This document shows, in pieces, positions 1 through 21,645 of a stretch of 21,645 nt of DNA. The position numbers and the translations under genes are program-made. Location of the stretch: positions 1-21,645 of the IMG/VR virus record IMGVR_UViG_3300037156_000435; one strand, 5' to 3'. The stretch is from a virus. The first letter of the stretch is position 1; each line of letters opens with the position of its first letter. The notes beneath the pieces are model-generated. The model saw nothing but the letters and a program-made list of their open reading frames with translations. It did no database searches and had not been told where the DNA came from.

Positions 1-366
1 GAAGGGGTCGTCGAGAGCGATATCACCTCGGCCGGGTCGACGGCCCACACCGACGCCGGCGTGATTGCGGGCGACATCAACACCGCCGCCAGCCAGGCGC
101 ACGGCGACGAAGGCCAGCTGCACACGGACGAAGGGGTCGTCGAGGCGGACATCAACGCCGCCGGGACTCAGGCCCATACCGACGCGGGCACGGCGCACGC
201 AGATGAAGGTGTCGTCGAGGGCGACATCACCGCGGCCGGAACCGCGGCCCACACCGACGCGGGAACCGCCCACACCGATGCCGGGACGGCCCACACCGAC
301 GCCGGCGTCATCGAGACCGACATCACCGCCGCCGGAACCCAGGCCCACACCGATGCGACGGCGGCC
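1..366 (+). repeat. Degenerate coding repeat (25-residue period, 18+7)
   Basis: This stretch encodes nine AHTDAG-type motifs whose His residues lie at visible-protein positions 16, 34, 41, 59, 66, 84, 91, 98 and 116. The spacings are 18, 7, 18, 7, 18, 7, 7 and 18. Three near-identical 21-bp units run in tandem at 247-267, 268-288 and 289-309. The repeat continues past the left edge of the window. It is coding throughout and in frame. Confidence 0.85.
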
Positions 367-1311
367 AACGCTTCGCTCGCCGCCATCGCCGCCAAGGGCC
401 AGGCGGCCAAGGCCGCGTCGATATCGGTTACGCCGGCGTCGGATCCGGACACCCGGGTCGCGGCGGCGAATATCACCGCCGCGGACGTGCTGACCATCGT
501 CACAGTCGGCCAGAGCGGCGTCTCGCTGGTCTCCGGCGCGCCGAGCGTGAATTCGTCCCAGGTCTGGGCGCTGAACGGCCACTCATCCGCCGCCCTGACC
601 TTCACTGGGCCGTTCGTCGCCTCGGTGAATATCGAGGTGTCGGCCGACGGCGGCCTGACCTATGCGCCGGCCAGCGGCAAGATCCGCGGCACGCCCGTGA
701 CCGCCTCGACAGTGACCGCGCCCGGCCTGTTCCAGGTCGACGTGACGGGCATAACGCATATCCGCTCCCGCTGCACCGCCTTCACCTCCGGCACGGTCGC
801 CGTGGCGGCGACGGCGTCGGCCAGCCCGGGCCTGACCCAGATCATAAATCCGATCCGGCTGGTCGACAGTTCGGGCAATAACGCCACCGTCAAGCCGGCG
901 ACGACCCAGGCCTCAACCGCCGACACGGCGTTGGTAGTCGCGCCGATCGCCGGCTCGACCGGTCGGGACTATAGCGCCGACGCGCCGGCCATCCCGAATG
1001 TCGGGGCCAACTTCGGCGGCTCTGGGCCCTTTGCGAGCTATGTGCGCGTGGGCGTCGTCGCCGCCAATCCCTCCCGCGCCAATATCGACGTTGAGAATGC
1101 CACCGGCGCACAGATCGTCTTGGTGCGTGACGATGGGACGGCGGCAACCGCGGCGGCCCCGGTCAACGCTTCGGCCTTCCCGCTGGCCGGCGGCGCGTTG
1201 GCCGGCGCCCAGGGCGGTTCGTGGGCTTCGACCACCTTCAAGGGGCGAATCCAAGTCTACGCGCCCGCCGCGCTGAGCGGAAACCAGTTCGTCGCCATGA
1301 TGGAAGATTGA
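1..1311 (+). CDS. Tail-fibre-like protein with coiled-coil repeat shaft (5' end outside the window)
   Basis: The reading frame is open from base 1, and the repeat pattern is already under way there, so the GTG at 61 is not the true start and the gene begins upstream. Residues 1-120 of the visible part consist of degenerate AHTDAG / EGVVExDI repeats. His residues fall at spacings of 7 and 18, and Ala/Ile/Val follow a 3-4 spacing, as in a coiled coil. The remainder is Ala/Gly/Ser/Thr-rich and probably beta-structured. The last ~70 residues (VENATG, VRDDG, QGGSW, FKGRIQVY) resemble the ends of phage virion surface proteins. No enzymatic motif is seen. I infer a trimeric fibre or shaft subunit because a clear fibre gene follows 4 bases later. 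The exact family is not recognised. Confidence 0.6.
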   Translation, partial: EGVVESDITSAGSTAHTDAGVIAGDINTAASQAHGDEGQLHTDEGVVEADINAAGTQAHTDAGTAHADEGVVEGDITAAGTAAHTDAGTAHTDAGTAHTDAGVIETDITAAGTQAHTDATAANASLAAIAAKGQAAKAASISVTPASDPDTRVAAANITAADVLTIVTVGQSGVSLVSGAPSVNSSQVWALNGHSSAALTFTGPFVASVNIEVSADGGLTYAPASGKIRGTPVTASTVTAPGLFQVDVTGITHIRSRCTAFTSGTVAVAATASASPGLTQIINPIRLVDSSGNNATVKPATTQASTADTALVVAPIAGSTGRDYSADAPAIPNVGANFGGSGPFASYVRVGVVAANPSRANIDVENATGAQIVLVRDDGTAATAAAPVNASAFPLAGGALAGAQGGSWASTTFKGRIQVYAPAALSGNQFVAMMED

Positions 1312-1315
1312 TACG

Positions 1316-4225
1316 ATGTCGTCACAGCCCCCCATTGTCACCGCGACCACTGGCGGCGCCGGCGACGCCGGCCTTATTCCGCGCCTGAACGCCGCCGGCC
1401 TGCTCGACGACACCATGATGCCAGCGGACATTGTCAGCACGGTCAGCCAGAACGCCGCCTACTGGCCGTCGACCGCGAACGCCCTCAGCAACGGTGTCGC
1501 CCAGATCGCCGGCCTGGTGGGCGGCTCGGGCGGAACGAACGGGACCTTCGCCCTGGCCTTCTCCGGCGGCGGCGGCTCGGGCGCGGCGGGCTCGTTCACC
1601 GTGGTCGGGGGTGTGGTGGTCTCCACTGTCATGCGATATGCTGGCGTGGGCTACACCAGCGCGCCCGCGGTCAGCTTTGCTGCCTGCAGCGGGCTCACCG
1701 GCGCATCGGCCGTGGCGCAATACGCCCCGAATGTCGCGCTTGGCGGTTATTTCAAGGTCCCTGTCACCGGCGGCTATAATCTCTACCAGGTGCAAGCCGG
1801 GCCCGCCGCCGTTCAGATCGGCAACACCTTTCCCGACAACACCGGCATTGCCTCTCTTGTCAGCACCGTGACCGGTTCGCCGGCCTATGCGAACCCTGGC
1901 GGGACGGGCAACCGCAAGAGCAGCGTCACCGTCACGGCGTCAGCGGGCCTGATCATCGCCGGGACGCCCCCGAACCTTGTCGATGGCGACACGTCCAGCT
2001 CCAGCTCGGCGAACAGCATCGAGTTCGGCGCCGTTGCGGTGGCAGGCTTATGGCTGCTCTTCGATTTCGGCGAGGACGCGGCGCGAGTCGTCACGGAGGC
2101 CACATGGTATCAGTCCGGAGCCAATGGCCACGGGACCTGGCAGTGGAGCGGCTCCAACGACGGCGTCACCTTCACCGCCATCGGCGGCACATTCACACTC
2201 GGCGGCGCGACGACACAGATCCAGGCGTCGCTCGCGGTCAACAGCACGCCCTATCGGTACTATCAGCTGCTTGGCGTATCCGGGTCTGCTTCGGCGTCGC
2301 CCTACATCGGCGAGGTCCAGTTCAAGATCGGGCCGGCCCAGGGGGACGGAAAGGCCGCGCTCGCCGAGCTGCTCGCCTACAAGCAAGCCCAGATCTTCCC
2401 CGCCGGGTTTCCGACCTCGAAGCTGATCTCCGCCTATTTCTTTGATCCGTCAGGCATCAACGGAACGAACGTCGTTGATCAGTTCGGGTCCAACCCCATC
2501 AACCTGACCGCCGCGACGAGTCCGAACTACACGCCAAATGGGCACGGCATTCGCCTCGCCGCCGGCCTGATCCAACTGCCGACGATCTTGGGCATGCGGT
2601 CCTACACGCTGCTAAATCGCTGCGACAAGGACGGCACAACCGGATTCCTGTTCTCCGGGGAAGGGCAGAACAGCGGCGGTGGCGTGCTCCAGGCCTTGGT
2701 TCCCACGACCGGGACGACGCTCTATGGCGGCTCCGGCGTGGACCTGCATGCGCCGATCTACAACACGACCAACTCGCCAGGCACCGCCTGCACCGAACTG
2801 AACCGCGGCAACTGGGGGAGCCTCCATCGCGAGATGGCCGCGGCGGACACGAGCTTCGCCTACGCCATTGGCGGTCGCGCCGCGACGACGACCTCGCGAT
2901 GCGCTGATTTTGAGGTCAATGCGCTGTTCCTTTGGAATGCGCCGCTGACCACGGCCGAGCGGGCGGTGGTGCACCTGTACATCCGTGCTCGCGCGCTGAA
3001 GTTCGGCATCTTCCTTCACAGCAACGACTGCCCGGTCAAGGACGACGTCTACATCGTAATGGGCGAGAGCACGGCCTCTGGCCGCGCCAACCTGCTTGAA
3101 CTGCCAGCTGCTAAGCAATCCCGTCTATTCGCCTCGACATTCATCACGCCCTGGGGCGGTGGCGGGTCGGTCTACCCATGGCAGCCTCTGAAGATGGGGC
3201 TAAACCAGCAGGTTCCTGAGAGCAGCGCCCTCTACTCGGCCAACTCGTTCGCACAGTATCGGGCGAACAACTTCTCCAACGGCGACACGCTCAAGGTCGG
3301 TAGCCAGACCTATACCTGGAAGGTGTCACTCACGGGCGCGGCCAACGAGGTCCTGATCGGGGCGAATTTCGCCGCGTCGGCCGCTAACTTCGTCGCGGCT
3401 CTGACGGCGGGGACCGGCGCTGGCTCGACCTATGGCACAGGAACGACCGCCAATGCATCGGCGACCGGCTACGTGCCGACTGGTGGGACGTCGATCGTGG
3501 CGATGGCGCTGGCCGCGGGGGCGACATCAGTGGCTGTGAGCTACACGCCGGTCGGATCGACGGTCGCGGGCGTGTGGGGTGACGGCTTCCTGGACGCGGG
3601 TCGCAGCGGCGGCGTGACGCCGACCTATCCGGACTCGCTCAGCATCGAGTACGGCATCGCCACGCAACGCGAGGCGGCGCTTCTGTCTGGGGCGAAGCGA
3701 CGGCCCTGCCGCATCATCAAGCCGGGCAAGGGGAGCACCTTCTTCGCGCCGTCCTCGACGGGGTATGCCGGCAGCGCGTCAGCGAGCTGGAACGCCGGCG
3801 AGAACGTCGGCAACGGGTGCCTCACCCAGGCGATAACGCACATCCAGCAGGGATTGCAGGACATGATCGCGCAGGGGATCGGCTTCGGCTCGATCAACCT
3901 CGACCTGCTGATGGGACTCAATGACTCACAGAGCACCACCTACGCCCCGGACGCGACGACCTACCAGGGCTATGTCCAGGCGTCCTTCAACGTGCTCGCG
4001 GGCGTCCTTCCGGGCGTTGTCATAGGGGGGGCGGTCTTCCTGCCGCACACCCATGACCCGGCCGGTAACGCCACGGCACAGGGGTATGTCCGCACGGGGC
4101 TCGCGGCCTTCGCAGGGGCCAACGGCCTGGCCAGCGTGGACACACAGTCCTTCGGCCTGGAGCCCGACAGCGTGCACTACAATGCCGATGCGAACCTAAG
4201 CATGGGCGTTACCGCGCATGGCTAG
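1316..4225 (+). CDS. Multidomain tail fibre/spike with SGNH-hydrolase-like C-terminus
   Basis: This 969-residue protein starts at an ATG 4 bases after the previous stop, with a GGAAG stretch upstream. Residues ~15-40 carry the GLIPRLNAAGLLDDTMMP type motif common near the N-terminus of tail fibres. A GYTSAP motif follows near residue 115. Residues ~180-340 resemble an F5/8C (discoidin) carbohydrate-binding fold, and ~385-555 resemble a LamG/concanavalin fold. From ~570 the chain looks like an SGNH hydrolase: GES 583-585 (block I), GLND 867-870 (block III) and DSVH 951-954 (block V). A separate phage-type module (GDTLKVGSQTYTWK, ~residues 660-770) is inserted between block I and block III. The likely role is host-glycan binding and ester (for example O-acetyl) hydrolysis at the cell surface. 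The domain calls are by eye; fibre identity is fairly secure and the exact substrate is unknown. Confidence 0.7.
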   Translation: MSSQPPIVTATTGGAGDAGLIPRLNAAGLLDDTMMPADIVSTVSQNAAYWPSTANALSNGVAQIAGLVGGSGGTNGTFALAFSGGGGSGAAGSFTVVGGVVVSTVMRYAGVGYTSAPAVSFAACSGLTGASAVAQYAPNVALGGYFKVPVTGGYNLYQVQAGPAAVQIGNTFPDNTGIASLVSTVTGSPAYANPGGTGNRKSSVTVTASAGLIIAGTPPNLVDGDTSSSSSANSIEFGAVAVAGLWLLFDFGEDAARVVTEATWYQSGANGHGTWQWSGSNDGVTFTAIGGTFTLGGATTQIQASLAVNSTPYRYYQLLGVSGSASASPYIGEVQFKIGPAQGDGKAALAELLAYKQAQIFPAGFPTSKLISAYFFDPSGINGTNVVDQFGSNPINLTAATSPNYTPNGHGIRLAAGLIQLPTILGMRSYTLLNRCDKDGTTGFLFSGEGQNSGGGVLQALVPTTGTTLYGGSGVDLHAPIYNTTNSPGTACTELNRGNWGSLHREMAAADTSFAYAIGGRAATTTSRCADFEVNALFLWNAPLTTAERAVVHLYIRARALKFGIFLHSNDCPVKDDVYIVMGESTASGRANLLELPAAKQSRLFASTFITPWGGGGSVYPWQPLKMGLNQQVPESSALYSANSFAQYRANNFSNGDTLKVGSQTYTWKVSLTGAANEVLIGANFAASAANFVAALTAGTGAGSTYGTGTTANASATGYVPTGGTSIVAMALAAGATSVAVSYTPVGSTVAGVWGDGFLDAGRSGGVTPTYPDSLSIEYGIATQREAALLSGAKRRPCRIIKPGKGSTFFAPSSTGYAGSASASWNAGENVGNGCLTQAITHIQQGLQDMIAQGIGFGSINLDLLMGLNDSQSTTYAPDATTYQGYVQASFNVLAGVLPGVVIGGAVFLPHTHDPAGNATAQGYVRTGLAAFAGANGLASVDTQSFGLEPDSVHYNADANLSMGVTAHG

Positions 4226-4229
4226 ATTG

Positions 4230-4853
4230 TCACTTAGCGCAGGCCGCGTTGACGCCCCGCTTGAATTCCATGCGGCCCGGGGCGTTCAGATGGACGCCGT
4301 CGACGGTCATGGCGGTCGGGAGCGGTTCGACAAACACGCCGCCGGTCGTGGACGCCAGGCGTCGCAGATAGGCATTTCCAGCTTGCGCCTGCGCCAGGAA
4401 GTGCGGGTCGGTCGGCAGGGCCACAATGATCGGGCGAGGAGCCAAGCCCGCAAGCCGTTCCATCTCCGCCTGGTAGCGCGCCAGCGGCGTGGGGTCGGCA
4501 ACGAGCAGGTCGTTCGCGCCGAGTTCGAGCACGAGGCGCGACGGTCGGGTGCGGGCGACCAGCGCGTCGGCCATTGGTAGTATGTCCTCGGCCTTGGCGT
4601 GGCTGATGGCGGCGTTAAACACGGGAACGCCGCATAGGCTGACAATCTGCTGGCGGTCTGTGATGCTGTCGCCGAGCACCAGCACGCCGCCTGGCGCCAT
4701 GTCGTTGGCGCGCCATAGAAGCACTTCATGCCGCGAGACGATCGGCGACGCGATGGGCTTTCGCCAGTGCGCGTAACCGAAAGCGACGCCAACGATCACG
4801 CCAACCAGTGCGATGAGCATCATTCTGAGTGTCGCCGGCGCGGTCTGGAGCAT
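4230..4853 (-). CDS. Membrane-anchored SGNH/GDSL hydrolase (opposite-strand cargo gene)
   Basis: The 207-residue protein has a hydrophobic segment at ~11-28, likely an uncleaved anchor, followed by a small SGNH hydrolase domain. The visible signatures are GDSI 61-64 (nucleophile S63), GAND 112-115 (N114) and DGVH 185-188 (D185, H188). The usual block II glycine region reads NAAISHA, so the oxyanion glycine is not obvious. The gene is convergent with the fibre gene (4-base gap) and divergent from the F homologue. It is the only minus-strand gene of the window, as expected for an independently expressed cargo ('moron') gene. The domain probably acts in the periplasm or at the cell surface on an ester such as an acetylated glycan; the substrate is unknown. 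M11 or M12 are alternative starts; no strong ribosome binding site is seen for any of them. Confidence 0.8.
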   Translation of the reverse strand: MLQTAPATLRMMLIALVGVIVGVAFGYAHWRKPIASPIVSRHEVLLWRANDMAPGGVLVLGDSITDRQQIVSLCGVPVFNAAISHAKAEDILPMADALVARTRPSRLVLELGANDLLVADPTPLARYQAEMERLAGLAPRPIIVALPTDPHFLAQAQAGNAYLRRLASTTGGVFVEPLPTAMTVDGVHLNAPGRMEFKRGVNAACAK

Positions 4854-4923
4854 CGGGCAGCTTTAGCAGCACTACGGGCCGACCGGAAAGGGCGCCCGCT
4901 ATAGGTTCATGAATGGAGTCGCC
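4854..4923. promoter_or_regulatory. Divergent intergenic region between the hydrolase gene and F
   Basis: This 70-bp gap separates the minus-strand hydrolase start from the head operon and must carry any promoter specific to the hydrolase. A TATAGG hexamer lies at 4900-4905, and the same spot reads TATAGC on the other strand. I see no matching -35 box on either side, so a promoter is only inferred from gene orientation. Confidence 0.3.
4915..4918 (+). promoter_or_regulatory. Ribosome binding site choosing the F start
   Basis: GGAG is followed by a 5-base spacer and the ATG at 4924. This favours 4924 over the in-frame ATG at 4909, which has only a weak AGG in front of it. Confidence 0.65.
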
Positions 4924-6168
4924 ATGCCCAAGATCATCCTCAAGCCGCTGCCGCCGAAGGAGGCGATCGCCTACTTCCGCGGCAAGGGGCTGGCCGAGAC
5001 CTTCGCCTGGCAGGACATGTGGCAGGAGGAGCATGCCAAGGCCTTCACCGTGGCCAAGGCGATGCGCGGATCCGTGCTGCAGGACATCCGCGACGCGGTC
5101 GACCAGGCGCTGGCCAACGGAACCACGCTGCAGACCTTCAAGGCCCAGCTGCAGCCGCTGCTGGAGGCGCAGGGCTGGTGGGGCAAGCAGCGGGCGATCG
5201 ATCCGCTGACCGGCGAGGAGAAGCTGGTCCAGCTGGGCTCGCCGCGCCGGCTGCGGACCATCTTCGACGTCAACATGCGCACCGCGCGCATGGCCGGCTA
5301 TTGGGAGCGGATCCAGGAGACCAAGGACGCGCTGCCCTATCTGCAGTACCAGACCGCCGGCGACGACCGGGTGCGGCCCGAGCACGCCGCCTGGGACGGA
5401 ACCACCCTGCCGGTCGACGACGACTGGTGGGACGTGCACACCCCGCCCTGCGACTGGGGCTGCCGCTGCACCATCACCCAGATGAGCAAGGGCCAGCTGG
5501 ATCGCTCCGGCGGCGATGTCACCGACAAGCCGGCGGCCTTCCCGTCCAGGAGCTACACGAACCCGCGCACCGGCGAGGTGGTGCGGGTCGAGGGCGGCAT
5601 CGGGCCTGGCTGGGGCTACAACGTAGGCCGGGCCTATCTGGAGCGCGACACGCCGTCGCCGATGGGCGCTCCGGACGGCGATGACGCGGCATCCGCGGCC
5701 TCGGCCGAGACGCCGATCGGCCGCACCACCGTGAGCGCCGAACTGCTGCTCGATGCCGGCGCTACGGCCGAGGAGGCGCAGGCCGCCTTCCTCGGCGGCT
5801 TTGGCGTGGCGCCGGGCAAGAGCCGCATCGTCACAGATCCCAGCGGCGACGGCCTGGTCGTCGGGCCTGGCCTGTTCAAGGACAGCGTCGGCCGGCCGGT
5901 CACGCTGCCCAGGGCGACCCTGCGCGCCCTGCCGCTGGTCGGCCTGGCGCTGCGCGAGCCGGCGGAGATCCGCCGCGCCTGGCGCCAGGGCCCTGACGGC
6001 GCCAGCCTTCTGACCCGCCGCTACATCGCCCGCTACCAGGTGGGCGACAGGCCGGTCGACGTGGTGGTCGACTGGGCCAACGGCGGCTGGTGGCCGGGCA
6101 CGTCGAACGCCCGGCATCTCGACGTGCAGCAGCTGCGCGACGGGCCGATCGCCTACACGGCGCCCTAA
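4924..6168 (+). CDS. F: Mu F-like head morphogenesis (minor capsid) protein with extra C-terminal domain
   Basis: This is a 414-residue protein from the ATG at 4924. Residues ~1-200 match the Mu F / SPP1 gp7 minor head protein family: an AIAYFRGKG start, a WQDMWQEEHAKAF stretch, an RTIFDVNMRTARMAGYWERI helix, and the family-typical PPCDWGCRC cysteine motif at 174-182. Such proteins bind the portal and act in early head assembly; some are ejected with the DNA. Residues ~225-265 form an Ala/Asp-rich linker. Residues ~300-414 form a separate domain (LALREPAEIRRAW, RRYIARYQ, DVVVDW, GTSNARH) that resembles the PBECR-type nuclease-like tails found on other MuF proteins. That last point is a judgement from pattern only. 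Downstream lies I, without the G gene that separates F and I in Mu. Confidence 0.88.
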   Translation: MPKIILKPLPPKEAIAYFRGKGLAETFAWQDMWQEEHAKAFTVAKAMRGSVLQDIRDAVDQALANGTTLQTFKAQLQPLLEAQGWWGKQRAIDPLTGEEKLVQLGSPRRLRTIFDVNMRTARMAGYWERIQETKDALPYLQYQTAGDDRVRPEHAAWDGTTLPVDDDWWDVHTPPCDWGCRCTITQMSKGQLDRSGGDVTDKPAAFPSRSYTNPRTGEVVRVEGGIGPGWGYNVGRAYLERDTPSPMGAPDGDDAASAASAETPIGRTTVSAELLLDAGATAEEAQAAFLGGFGVAPGKSRIVTDPSGDGLVVGPGLFKDSVGRPVTLPRATLRALPLVGLALREPAEIRRAWRQGPDGASLLTRRYIARYQVGDRPVDVVVDWANGGWWPGTSNARHLDVQQLRDGPIAYTAP

Positions 6169-7803: not shown

Positions 7804-8706
7804 GTGATCATCAATCGCGCCAATCTCATTACCCTGGGCGTCAGCTACAACGCCGCCTACCAGGGCGCCATCCTGCAGGCCAAGCCGCTCGCCGAGCGCA
7901 TCGCCACCGTGGTCAATTCGTCCACTGGGCGCGAGGAGTACGGCTGGATCGGCAAGATCCCCAACGTCCGCCAGTGGGTCGGCGACCGGCAGGTCCAGAA
8001 CCTGTCGACCTCGTCCTACTACATCAAGAACCTGCCGTTCGAGCTGACCATCGCCGTCGACCGCGACGACATCGAGGACGACAACCTGGGCGTCTACGGC
8101 CCGCTGTTCTCCGAGATGGGCCTGGCCACCGTCGCCCACAAAGACCAGCTGGTCTATGGCGCGCTGAACGCCGGCTTCGCCAATCTCTGCTTTGACGGGC
8201 TGCCCTACTTTTCGACGGCCCACCCGGTGCTCGATGTCAACGGCGCGCCGACGACCTACGCCAACACCGACGCGCCGGCCGGCAATCCGGCCTGGTTCCT
8301 GATCGACAGCAGCCGGTATCTGAAGCCGATCATCTTCCAGGATCGCCGGCCGTTCACCTTCGTCTCGCTCGACAAGCCGGACGATGAGAACGTCTTCAAC
8401 CGCAAGGAATTCGTCTACGGCGTGGATGCCCGGCACAACGTCGGCTACGGCTTCCCGCAGTTCGCCTGGGGCTCGACCCAGCCGCTCACCGCCGCCAACT
8501 ACGGCGCTGCGCGCGAGGCGATGATGGCTCAGAAGGGCGACTTCGGCCGCCCGATCGGCGTCATGCCCGACCTGCTGGTCTATCCGCCATCGCTTGAATC
8601 GAACGCCCTGCAGATCCTCAACGCCGAGTTCCTGCCGGGCGGCGGCGGCGGCTCCAACATCTACTGGAAGACCGCCGAGCCCCTGAACGTGCCCTGGCTC
8701 GCCTAG
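7804..8706 (+). CDS. T: Major capsid protein, Mu T family
   Basis: This 300-residue protein starts at GTG 7804. It has the Mu T signature: a short N-terminus (INRANL) with no long cleaved scaffold domain, Y..GAILQAKPLAERIA, the WIGKIPNVRQWVGDR stretch (~51-65), a YYIKNLPFELTIAVDRDDIEDD region (~78-100), and LVYPPSLE near the C-terminus. The length fits the family (~305 residues in Mu). It forms the icosahedral head shell with an HK97-type fold, using Z-type scaffold and I protease during assembly. Cement protein lies just upstream. Confidence 0.95.
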   Translation: MIINRANLITLGVSYNAAYQGAILQAKPLAERIATVVNSSTGREEYGWIGKIPNVRQWVGDRQVQNLSTSSYYIKNLPFELTIAVDRDDIEDDNLGVYGPLFSEMGLATVAHKDQLVYGALNAGFANLCFDGLPYFSTAHPVLDVNGAPTTYANTDAPAGNPAWFLIDSSRYLKPIIFQDRRPFTFVSLDKPDDENVFNRKEFVYGVDARHNVGYGFPQFAWGSTQPLTAANYGAAREAMMAQKGDFGRPIGVMPDLLVYPPSLESNALQILNAEFLPGGGGGSNIYWKTAEPLNVPWLA

Positions 8707-20165: not shown

Positions 20166-21278
20166 ATGAAACGGATCGACACCGCCAACTTCCTCGCCAA
20201 CCTGTTCGGCGCGGGCAAGCACGGCTTCCAGGACGCCAACGCCGTGATCGGCCAGCAGGCGACCAACCTCAACGCGGCCATGTGGAACACCATCCAGGAG
20301 GAGCTGGCCGGGGTCGTCGAGGGCGTCGGCGTGGCGCTCGACCCCACCGGGGCCGATATCAATCAGGTGCTTCAGGCGCTCGCCCTGGCGGCGCAGGTTC
20401 AATACTGGAACTTCTGCGGCGTCGCCGGCGGAACGGCCAACGCGGTGACCTGCAATCCGACCAATCTCCAGTCCGGGCTGGTGGCCGGCCTGCGGGTCAC
20501 CGGCTTCCTGTCGGCGTCCAACACCGCCGCCGCCACCCTCAAGGTCGGCGCGCTGGCGGCCAAGTCATGGCTGCGCCGAGACGGCACCCCGCTACAGCCC
20601 GGCGAACTCGTGGCCGGGCAGCCGTTCGAGGCCATCTACGACGGCGTGGCCTTTCGGCTGCTGGCCAACAGGAGTGTGTCCCACGTCTCGATCTACGCCA
20701 ATGTCGGCGGCGTGCAGATGGTCAGTCTCGACGGGGCGGCCTTTACGACGGTCGCCGCGGGCAGCTTCGCCGGCTCGCCAAACGGTGTTGTGGAGTACGA
20801 TGTGATCGGCGGCGGCGGCGGCGGCGGCAGTACCACCACCAACGCCTCCATCGGCGGCGGCGGCGGCGGCGGCGGCCGGGCATGGGGCGTCGCTACCGGT
20901 GTGACCGCGGCGCAGACCATCACCGCCGGCGCGGCGGGCGCCACGGCCTCCAACGGCAACGGCGGCGATGGGGGCGCTTCCAGCTTCGGCGCTATCGCCA
21001 GCGCGACGGGCGGCCTCGGCGGCGTGGGCGGCGGCTTCACGACCGGCGGCTCCAGCGGTGTTGGCACCGGCGGCTTTATCAATTCGGGCCTCGGCGACGG
21101 CGGCAACGGCAACTCGGCCGCCTTTATCCCCGGCGGCGACGGCGGCGGCGCCGGCGGCAAGGGCAATGTTATCGTCTCCGGCAGCCCCGGCCGCGCCTAT
21201 GGCGCCGGCGGCGGCGGCGTCCCCAATTCCCTGGTCTCCGGCGCCGGCTTCTCCGGCGCCGTAACGTTGAGGTACTGA
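20166..21278 (+). CDS. Tail fibre/adhesin with glycine-rich C-terminal domain
   Basis: This 370-residue protein has AGGGA within the nine bases before its ATG. Residues ~1-75 are of the usual fibre N-terminal type (LNAAMWNTIQEELAGVVE, then a helical INQVLQALALAAQ). A beta region with a KSWLRRDGTPLQPGEL segment follows (~100-170). From ~208 to 366 the chain is dominated by glycine: runs of seven and eight Gly, then GGLGGVGGGF, GGDGGGAGGKG and AGGGGVP. Such Gly-rich ends resemble the stacked polyglycine-II adhesin folds on some phage fibres that carry receptor specificity. The position after gp48 equals that of Mu S. The fold of the Gly-rich part is inferred from composition. Confidence 0.8.
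   Translation: MKRIDTANFLANLFGAGKHGFQDANAVIGQQATNLNAAMWNTIQEELAGVVEGVGVALDPTGADINQVLQALALAAQVQYWNFCGVAGGTANAVTCNPTNLQSGLVAGLRVTGFLSASNTAAATLKVGALAAKSWLRRDGTPLQPGELVAGQPFEAIYDGVAFRLLANRSVSHVSIYANVGGVQMVSLDGAAFTTVAAGSFAGSPNGVVEYDVIGGGGGGGSTTTNASIGGGGGGGGRAWGVATGVTAAQTITAGAAGATASNGNGGDGGASSFGAIASATGGLGGVGGGFTTGGSSGVGTGGFINSGLGDGGNGNSAAFIPGGDGGGAGGKGNVIVSGSPGRAYGAGGGGVPNSLVSGAGFSGAVTLRY
20808..20828 (+). repeat. (GGC)7 trinucleotide run in the fibre gene
   Basis: Seven tandem GGC units encode seven Gly in frame. Slippage would change the Gly count without breaking the frame. Confidence 0.9.
20853..20876 (+). repeat. (GGC)8 trinucleotide run in the fibre gene
   Basis: Eight tandem GGC units encode eight Gly in frame, 24 bases after the first run. 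It is a second site open to slippage or recombination. Confidence 0.9.
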
Positions 21279-21279
21279 C

Positions 21280-21645
21280 ATGCTGGCCCTGCTCGCACCC
21301 GACCACGATGGCGCCCTGAAGGTCGCCCAGATCGCCGACGAGGCGTTCGACGTGCACCCGAACTTCCAGTGGGTCGATCTGGCCGGCGTGACGCCCTCGC
21401 CCGATCACGGCTGGACGGCGGTGCAGACCGACGGCGTCTGGGCCTTCGCGCCTCCGCAGCCCCCGAGCCTCGTCGAACAGGCGCTGACGGCGCTGGCCGC
21501 CACCGACGGCGTGCCGAGGCGGGCGTTCGAGGATGGCGTGGTCTACCCTGGCGCCTGGAAAACCTACCGCAACGCTCTGCGCGATATCGTCGCCGGCCGC
21601 GAGGCGCCCGACGCACTGCCCGAGCAGCCGCCCTATCCCAGCTGA
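21280..21645 (+). CDS. Tail-fibre assembly/chaperone-like protein
   Basis: This 121-residue protein starts one base after the fibre stop, and its TGA forms the last three bases of the window. A Trp-containing N-terminal half (NFQWVDL, HGWTAVQTDGVWAFAPPQPP) is followed by a helical half with a WKTYRNALRDIVAGREAPDALPEQPPYP ending. That ending (YRxALRDI then P..PPYP) is common in small proteins beside phage fibre genes that are annotated as fibre assembly or tail chaperone proteins. The function here is inferred from the pattern and from the neighbouring fibre. Confidence 0.65.
   Translation: MLALLAPDHDGALKVAQIADEAFDVHPNFQWVDLAGVTPSPDHGWTAVQTDGVWAFAPPQPPSLVEQALTALAATDGVPRRAFEDGVVYPGAWKTYRNALRDIVAGREAPDALPEQPPYPS

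Follow-up and report, generated by a model that had tools for sequence, protein, structure and literature searches.

Do two putative SGNH-type hydrolases encoded side by side in a temperate phage, one on the virion fibre and one predicted to be anchored in the membrane of the lysogen, act on the same surface glycan? This is the question raised by IMG/VR record IMGVR_UViG_3300037156_000435, a virus record of 21,645 bases that is a fragment with no host genome attached and is called the window below. Its fibre cassette, located between portal and MuF, ends in a tail-fibre-like gene on the plus strand and a small gene on the minus strand. A preliminary description, made from the DNA letters and their translations, had proposed that the fibre de-esterifies the surface glycan at adsorption while the anchored enzyme edits the same glycan to exclude superinfecting phages. 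Here, we find that the minus-strand gene is real and belongs to the SGNH hydrolase family, with a predicted N-terminal anchor and a complete catalytic triad, and that genes of its family recur antisense beside tail-fibre genes in other phages. We read the pair as a receptor cassette carried by a temperate phage of Mu-like type, composed of an SGNH fibre and a lysogen-expressed, anchored, glycan acyl-editing moron, and give this reading a probability of about 0.55.

The anchored gene and its fibre neighbour

Both open reading frames (ORFs), and all the motif residues cited for them, lie where the preliminary description had placed them. In the following list, as elsewhere, L numbers denote the loci that were compared.

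1316..4225, plus strand: cassette tail-fibre-like gene, 969 residues, upstream of MuF (ORF; PHROG and phage protein matches)
1865..2341, plus strand: fibre residues 184-342, a domain common to other phage virion proteins (phrog_33012 and virion protein match)
2408..2995, plus strand: fibre residues 365-560, a domain ahead of the SGNH-like part, common to L064 (alignment)
3038..4222, plus strand: fibre residues 575-969, the C-terminal SGNH-like part, interrupted by an inserted stretch of roughly 100 residues or more (motifs)
3062-3070, 3914-3925 and 4166-4177, plus strand: fibre blocks GES, GLND and DSVH, respectively (motif positions)
4230..4853, minus strand: membrane-anchored SGNH hydrolase gene, 207 residues, convergent with the fibre gene (ORF, PF13472, model, homologues)
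4770..4826, minus strand: N-terminal hydrophobic segment spanning about residues 10-28, modeled as helix 7-31 (19-residue hydropathy peaking at 2.27)
Within 4290..4667, minus strand: catalytic residues S63 (4665-4667), N114 (4512-4514), D185 (4299-4301) and H188 (4290-4292)
Within 4239..4634, minus strand: Cys74 (4632-4634) and Cys205 (4239-4241), a possible disulfide (alignment conservation)

The two genes are tail to tail, with 4 nt separating their stop codons. Codon usage marks the minus frame as coding, at 0.34 bits per codon versus 0.04 for the plus-strand ORF that overlaps it. Structure prediction had been suggested as a check, and for the anchored domain the outcome was favorable. The AlphaFold2 model (predicted local distance difference test score, pLDDT, 81.5; predicted template modeling score, pTM, 0.73) has a helix at residues 7-31 followed by an alternating alpha/beta domain, and Foldseek matched it to O-acetylesterases in the PDB at an E value of 8e-8 and a TM score of about 0.66. 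The best PDB matches are sialate O-acetylesterases, the PAF acetylhydrolase and the acetylxylan esterase Axe2. As modeled, the protein has the three-layer alpha/beta/alpha SGNH fold. S63, N114, D185 and H188 are invariant across 24 homologues, with blocks I (GDS), III (GxN) and V (DxxH) in order. Cys74 and Cys205 are both invariant in an eight-row alignment (set A3), and Cys74 is invariant in a 10-row alignment (set A6) and retained in most homologues; Cys205 has no aligned counterpart in the Hyphomicrobiales rows, where several sequences show a C-terminal Cys close by.

For the fibre, the evidence is of a different kind. Residues 46-166 match phrog_26934 (8e-23), residues 184-342 match phrog_33012 (8e-22), and residues 187-340 are 38% identical to a "virion protein" of Dinoroseobacter and Roseobacter phages. 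A related phage, L064, carries in the same slot a fibre with 22% identity to that of the window over 616 columns (E value, 6e-11), and this fibre matches tail and tail-fibre PHROGs. On the partial virion-protein domain match and the PHROG matches of L064, we class the window protein as a probable tail fibre or receptor-binding protein. Residues 365-560 look like a LamG/jelly-roll domain by eye; Pfam found no match there or elsewhere in the protein. In the C-terminal part, G583-E584-S585, G867-L868-N869-D870 and D951-S-V-H954 were confirmed, so that SGNH blocks I, III and V are present in order, and they are kept in L064. Shuffling the whole protein produced the ordered triple of strand-G[DE]S, strand-GxN[DN] and DxxH in 0.14% of trials, and shuffling the C-terminal part alone did so in 0.015%, for a P value of about 1e-3 to 1e-4. 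Among 1287 ORFs of at least 300 residues in a set of retrieved loci, only two contain it, one being the L064 fibre. The C terminus gave no match in the PDB or to profiles, nor in 348 genomes of one family or in viral contigs, and its AlphaFold model, built from a two-sequence alignment, reached a pLDDT of 28. NCBIfam names neither protein of the window.

On these motifs and one homologue, the SGNH-like end of the fibre is a candidate fold, less certain than that of the anchored gene. The claim of two adjacent SGNH hydrolases holds for the minus-strand gene (sub-threshold PF13472 match, triad, model and predicted anchor), and extends tentatively to the fibre end through its motifs and L064. Both proteins read D-x-V-H-x-N-A at block V, as had been claimed. 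Paralogy of the two domains was considered and is unsupported, the profile comparison giving a probability of 1.3% despite the N-A that follows both block V motifs. With GDS and GAND in the anchored protein and GES and GLND in the fibre, neither fits the SASA/NanS signature of Gln in block I and (H)QGE in block III.

Homologues beside fibres and glycan genes

Members of the anchored family were found by whole-genome searches (Alphaproteobacteria) and, for phage members, by profile scans. There are eight loci, including the window, in which the anchored SGNH gene is antisense beside a tail-fibre gene, and the seven others (L153, L159, L160, L162, L164, L181 and L183) are prophages or viral contigs. 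The gene converges with the 3' end of the fibre gene in the window, L153, L162, L164, L181 and L183; in L159 and L160 it is head-to-head with the fibre gene, on whose other side from the gene's own far end a structural gene follows, so that the anchored gene is flanked by the two. PHROG matches to tail fibres or collars identify the fibres of L159, L160, L162 and L164, and matches to the Pfam Collar domain identify those of L181 and L183. To explain fibre-side placement, the family tree requires a minimum of four gains or losses, and the placements fall into four groups: the window, whose sister is chromosomal (35% identity); L153/L145, nested in a chromosomal group; L183; and a Hyphomicrobiales-type phage clade of five.

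Locus L153 is a prophage of siphophage type, as judged by eye. In the fibre position it has a 768-residue gene that ends in a GDSL domain scoring over the cut-off, and it is by this domain and its place in the tail operon, not by PHROG or Collar matches, that we identified it as a fibre. A 225-residue anchored SGNH gene faces it, followed by spanin- and endolysin-like genes. Both L153 proteins exceed the PF13472 cut-off, with 61.5 bits for the anchored one (71.5 for a homologue in a Vibrio phage). L153 repeats the arrangement of the window, an SGNH fibre with a convergent anchored SGNH gene, in an unrelated phage. The anchored gene does not always have an SGNH fibre beside it: six of the eight neighboring fibres (L159, L160, L162, L164, L181 and L183) are of the collar type with no SGNH domain seen.

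The surroundings of other homologues bear on function. In Vibrio phage ZF14_PE001 (L165), the homologue and an acyltransferase-3 (AT3) gene lie between the CI repressor and integrase genes and on their strand, which is a lysogeny-module position. In a chromosomal locus (L184, 341-2127), a stand-alone anchored SGNH gene overlaps an AT3 gene, a candidate split AT3/SGNH pair. Elsewhere the homologue is found together with GtrA, an FkbM methyltransferase and a sugar epimerase (L182), or, in a viral record (L179, 577-3623), with a hexapeptide sugar acetyltransferase and a possible beta-helix protein. Taken together, these neighbors point to acyl editing of envelope glycans. The window gene itself is oriented against the late operon and has a non-structural product, as is characteristic of morons. 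That it is phage cargo is supported by the recurrent antisense placement at fibres, the repeated changes on the tree, the acyltransferase and glycan neighbors and the homologue between CI and integrase.

The portal-MuF slot and the rest of the window

Portal and MuF are adjacent, with a gap near 0, in many of about 100 relatives, and up to 5.5 kb apart in others; in the near relatives of the window, this space is occupied by a series of large and diverse fibre-like proteins. Across L003-L127, the portal-MuF junction is a hypervariable cargo slot of 0 to 5.5 kb, with large fibre-like proteins in Caulobacteraceae-type phages. The GC content at third codon positions is 0.80-0.86 in cassette genes versus 0.88-0.95 in the phage backbone, and the region looks like a swappable slot for a receptor gene plus cargo. 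One cassette fibre (L003) has a GDSL domain scoring over the Pfam cut-off, and the cassette proteins of L023, L036 and L051 have SGNH-like motifs by eye only, Pfam giving no support for L036 and L051. The remaining features of the window are as follows.

1..1311, plus strand: repeat-rich cassette protein, truncated by the contig end (homologue in L022)
4909..6168, plus strand: MuF head protein with a C-terminal PBECR2 domain, the right border of the cassette (PF04233, 1e-21; PF18810, 4e-13)
20166..21278, plus strand: second, conventional tail fibre, after a Gp48-like baseplate gene (Pfam/PHROG-type profile matches)
21280-21645: assembly-chaperone-like gene, directly after the second tail fibre

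The structural module is Mu-like, with MuF, protease, coat, sheath, tape-measure and baseplate genes, the conventional fibre and the chaperone-like gene. The nearest MuF relatives are viral contigs (76-84% identity), and the nearest named genome is a Caulobacter metagenome-assembled genome (65%); because these are its closest relatives, the phage probably has a host in the Caulobacteraceae.

Several other observations concern the slot and its borders. The first cassette protein has degenerate tandem repeats of 75-96 nt (AHTDAG/DI-AAGT type) at 1-360, and the nuclease-like PBECR2 domain at the C terminus of MuF, a head protein, is a candidate for a toxin-type domain. N termini resembling Sec signals were seen by eye on cassette fibre-like proteins of L008 (5782), L021 (5559), L006 (923), L010 (1364, 5301 and 5697) and L022 (4124), which is odd for virion proteins assembled in the cytoplasm. 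In L022, at about 7980-8140, a short ORF consists of only the first 40-odd MuF residues, beside lysis-type genes and after a fibre cassette near the tail genes; contig L021 likewise terminates at MuF residue 42. These MuF-start fragments may mark cassette recombination. Finally, L054 (1335-3681) encodes a 527-residue fibre-like protein with clear SGNH motifs and then a 253-residue partner, upstream of the packaging genes.

Mechanism, alternatives and significance

In the mechanism that we propose, the cassette between portal and MuF would most likely be exchanged as a unit. The esterase-like SGNH domain of the fibre would bind and de-acylate the host surface glycan at adsorption. The minus-strand gene, presumably a host-derived moron, would be transcribed from its own promoter in the lysogen and would yield a small enzyme tethered by its N terminus, with the catalytic domain in the periplasm. 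There it would edit ester groups, most likely O-acetyl, on the envelope glycan of the lysogen, perhaps the same one that the fibre recognizes, more probably by removal than by transfer, and so change the receptor for other phages and possibly exclude superinfecting ones. We favor an acyl-editing moron because of the fibre-side recurrence, the acyltransferase and glycan neighbors, the O-acetylesterase fold matches and the N-terminal anchor. Expression in the lysogen has indirect support by analogy, from the ZF14_PE001 homologue between CI and integrase. Both halves of the mechanism are plausible, since esterase activity has been shown for SGNH proteins on the tail fibres of Klebsiella prophages (PMC13123978) and O-acetylation directed by phage Sf6 blocks Sf6 superinfection (PMC9558356).

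Known systems resemble parts of this scheme. The Klebsiella prophage receptor-binding proteins are, like the window protein, temperate-phage tail fibres with an SGNH-type domain and a proposed role in receptor-glycan de-acetylation (PMC13123978). The candidate domain in the window fibre is very divergent from them (GES for GDS, a large insertion, no Pfam match), and its gene lies between portal and MuF. The esterase tailspike gp63.1 of coliphage G7C also has SGNH motifs (GDS, GWND and DTTH) in a tail protein that de-O-acetylates the O-antigen; however, it has no detectable sequence similarity to the window fibre domain (hhalign probability, 0.1%), and G7C is a virulent phage with no anchored partner annotated beside gp63.1. 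Sf6 OacA and the O-acetylation system of phage D3 offer a precedent for a phage-encoded membrane protein that would alter receptor-glycan acylation in the lysogen, but they are acyltransferases, whereas the window gene encodes an anchored SGNH protein by itself, and the visible sequence contains no acyltransferase.

Several results weigh against the moron reading. The PF13472 match of the minus-strand gene (E = 3.4e-6, 28.1 bits) falls under the gathering cut-off of 32.9, which is a curated threshold rather than a biological feature. At block II, the oxyanion Gly, present in most of the 24 homologues and replaced by Ser in some, is His85 in the window alone, and activity could be weak or altered; this lowers the certainty of activity more than that of SGNH membership, because substitutions there occur in characterized members such as SpOatA. 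A promoter scan near the gene found no sigma-70 site, a result of limited weight in this host. Searches of viral contigs, GTDB contigs, phages and plasmids gave no close relative of the anchored protein, and for the fibre they matched only the domain at residues 177-340. Beyond the window, L153 is the only SGNH-SGNH pair, and several homologues are chromosomal and adjoin neither phage nor glycan genes.

The anchored protein might instead be an acyl-transfer partner, taking an acyl group from a host or phage AT3 or MBOAT protein and adding it to the glycan, with O-acetyl serotype conversion as the result. AT3 and MBOAT systems do use SGNH proteins to complete acyl transfer (PMC9558356), and in AT3-SGNH and MBOAT-SGNH systems (OafB, OatA and PatA-PatB) an extracytoplasmic SGNH domain is likewise carried on a transmembrane helix. 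The homologues adjoining AT3 in the Vibrio phage and L184 fit such a role, as do the homologues with Ser at the block II Gly, like the transferase SpOatA (PMC9487903; the window has His), and the fact that superinfection-excluding modifications known so far are mostly additions (PMC13123978). Yet the window SGNH is unfused, its visible 21.6 kb contains no AT3 or MBOAT acyltransferase gene, fused or adjacent, and the structure matches are hydrolases, though fold matches cannot tell both activities apart. Transfer is an unlikely account, if the likeliest of the alternatives. Slightly less likely is that the two genes are chance neighbors, the minus-strand gene being a host gene caught in a cargo-prone region and functionally unlinked to the fibre. 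The slot does accept varied cargo, and at the same place L004 has an unrelated minus-strand gene (1870-2511, just ahead of MuF) for a protein that appears to be exported and whose PEP-CTERM sorting signal scores over the Pfam cut-off; the fibre end may merely tolerate insertions. What chance explains poorly is a single gene family repeatedly beside fibres, with its several placement changes on the tree and one repeat of the SGNH pair.

Two further roles were considered. Prophage-borne NanS-p O-acetylesterases, known from Shiga toxin (Stx) prophages, aid growth on acetylated sialic acid (PMC8065619), and the window gene could serve lysogen nutrition or some other host benefit in the same way, with no relation to phage receptors; the top fold match is a sialate O-acetylesterase, and chromosomal relatives exist. 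NanS, however, is of the SASA type, with a Gln-based oxyanion hole and (H)QGE in block III (PMC9487903), whereas the minus-strand gene has GxND. An inner-membrane anchor is awkward for scavenging, and repeated antisense placement at fibres with glycan-modification neighbors better fits surface editing, so we hold the nutritional role to be improbable. Still more doubtful is an aid to lysis through peptidoglycan O-acetyl groups or phospholipids. Peptidoglycan esterases and TesA-type lipases are among the SGNH folds, and in L153, L181 and L183 the gene is flanked, by eye, by the fibre on one side and lysis-type genes on the other. In all eight fibre-side cases, however, it runs antisense to the late genes, and no lysis gene adjoins it in the window, L159 or L160.

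Overall, the interpretation given in the preliminary description is partly supported. SGNH receptor-binding proteins in temperate phages have been published, and acyl-editing lysogens are likewise known. In the open-licence literature, we found no account of an anchored SGNH gene antisense to neighboring fibres or of such a gene paired with an SGNH fibre, which does not prove absence; both the repeated occurrence of this antisense gene at fibres and the SGNH-SGNH pair seen in two unrelated phages are apparently new.

Acyl editing by lysogens is known mostly as acetyl addition by acyltransferases, and the SGNH fibres of temperate phages were only lately shown to be active esterases. Because homologues here pair with AT3, the family also bears on whether a separate SGNH protein works together with AT3-only proteins (PMC9558356). 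A stronger version of our reading, which we put forward only tentatively and think unlikely as it stands, is a matched, exchangeable receptor module in which both enzymes would act on one acyl group, the fibre esterase removing it and the anchored enzyme stripping it from, or adding it to, the lysogen glycan, the convergent pair having arisen in unrelated temperate phages (the window and L153). If that were true, every swap of fibre specificity would carry its own exclusion enzyme. If the moron reading is true, a stand-alone anchored SGNH at the fibre would tie the chemistry of adsorption and that of exclusion into one swappable unit.

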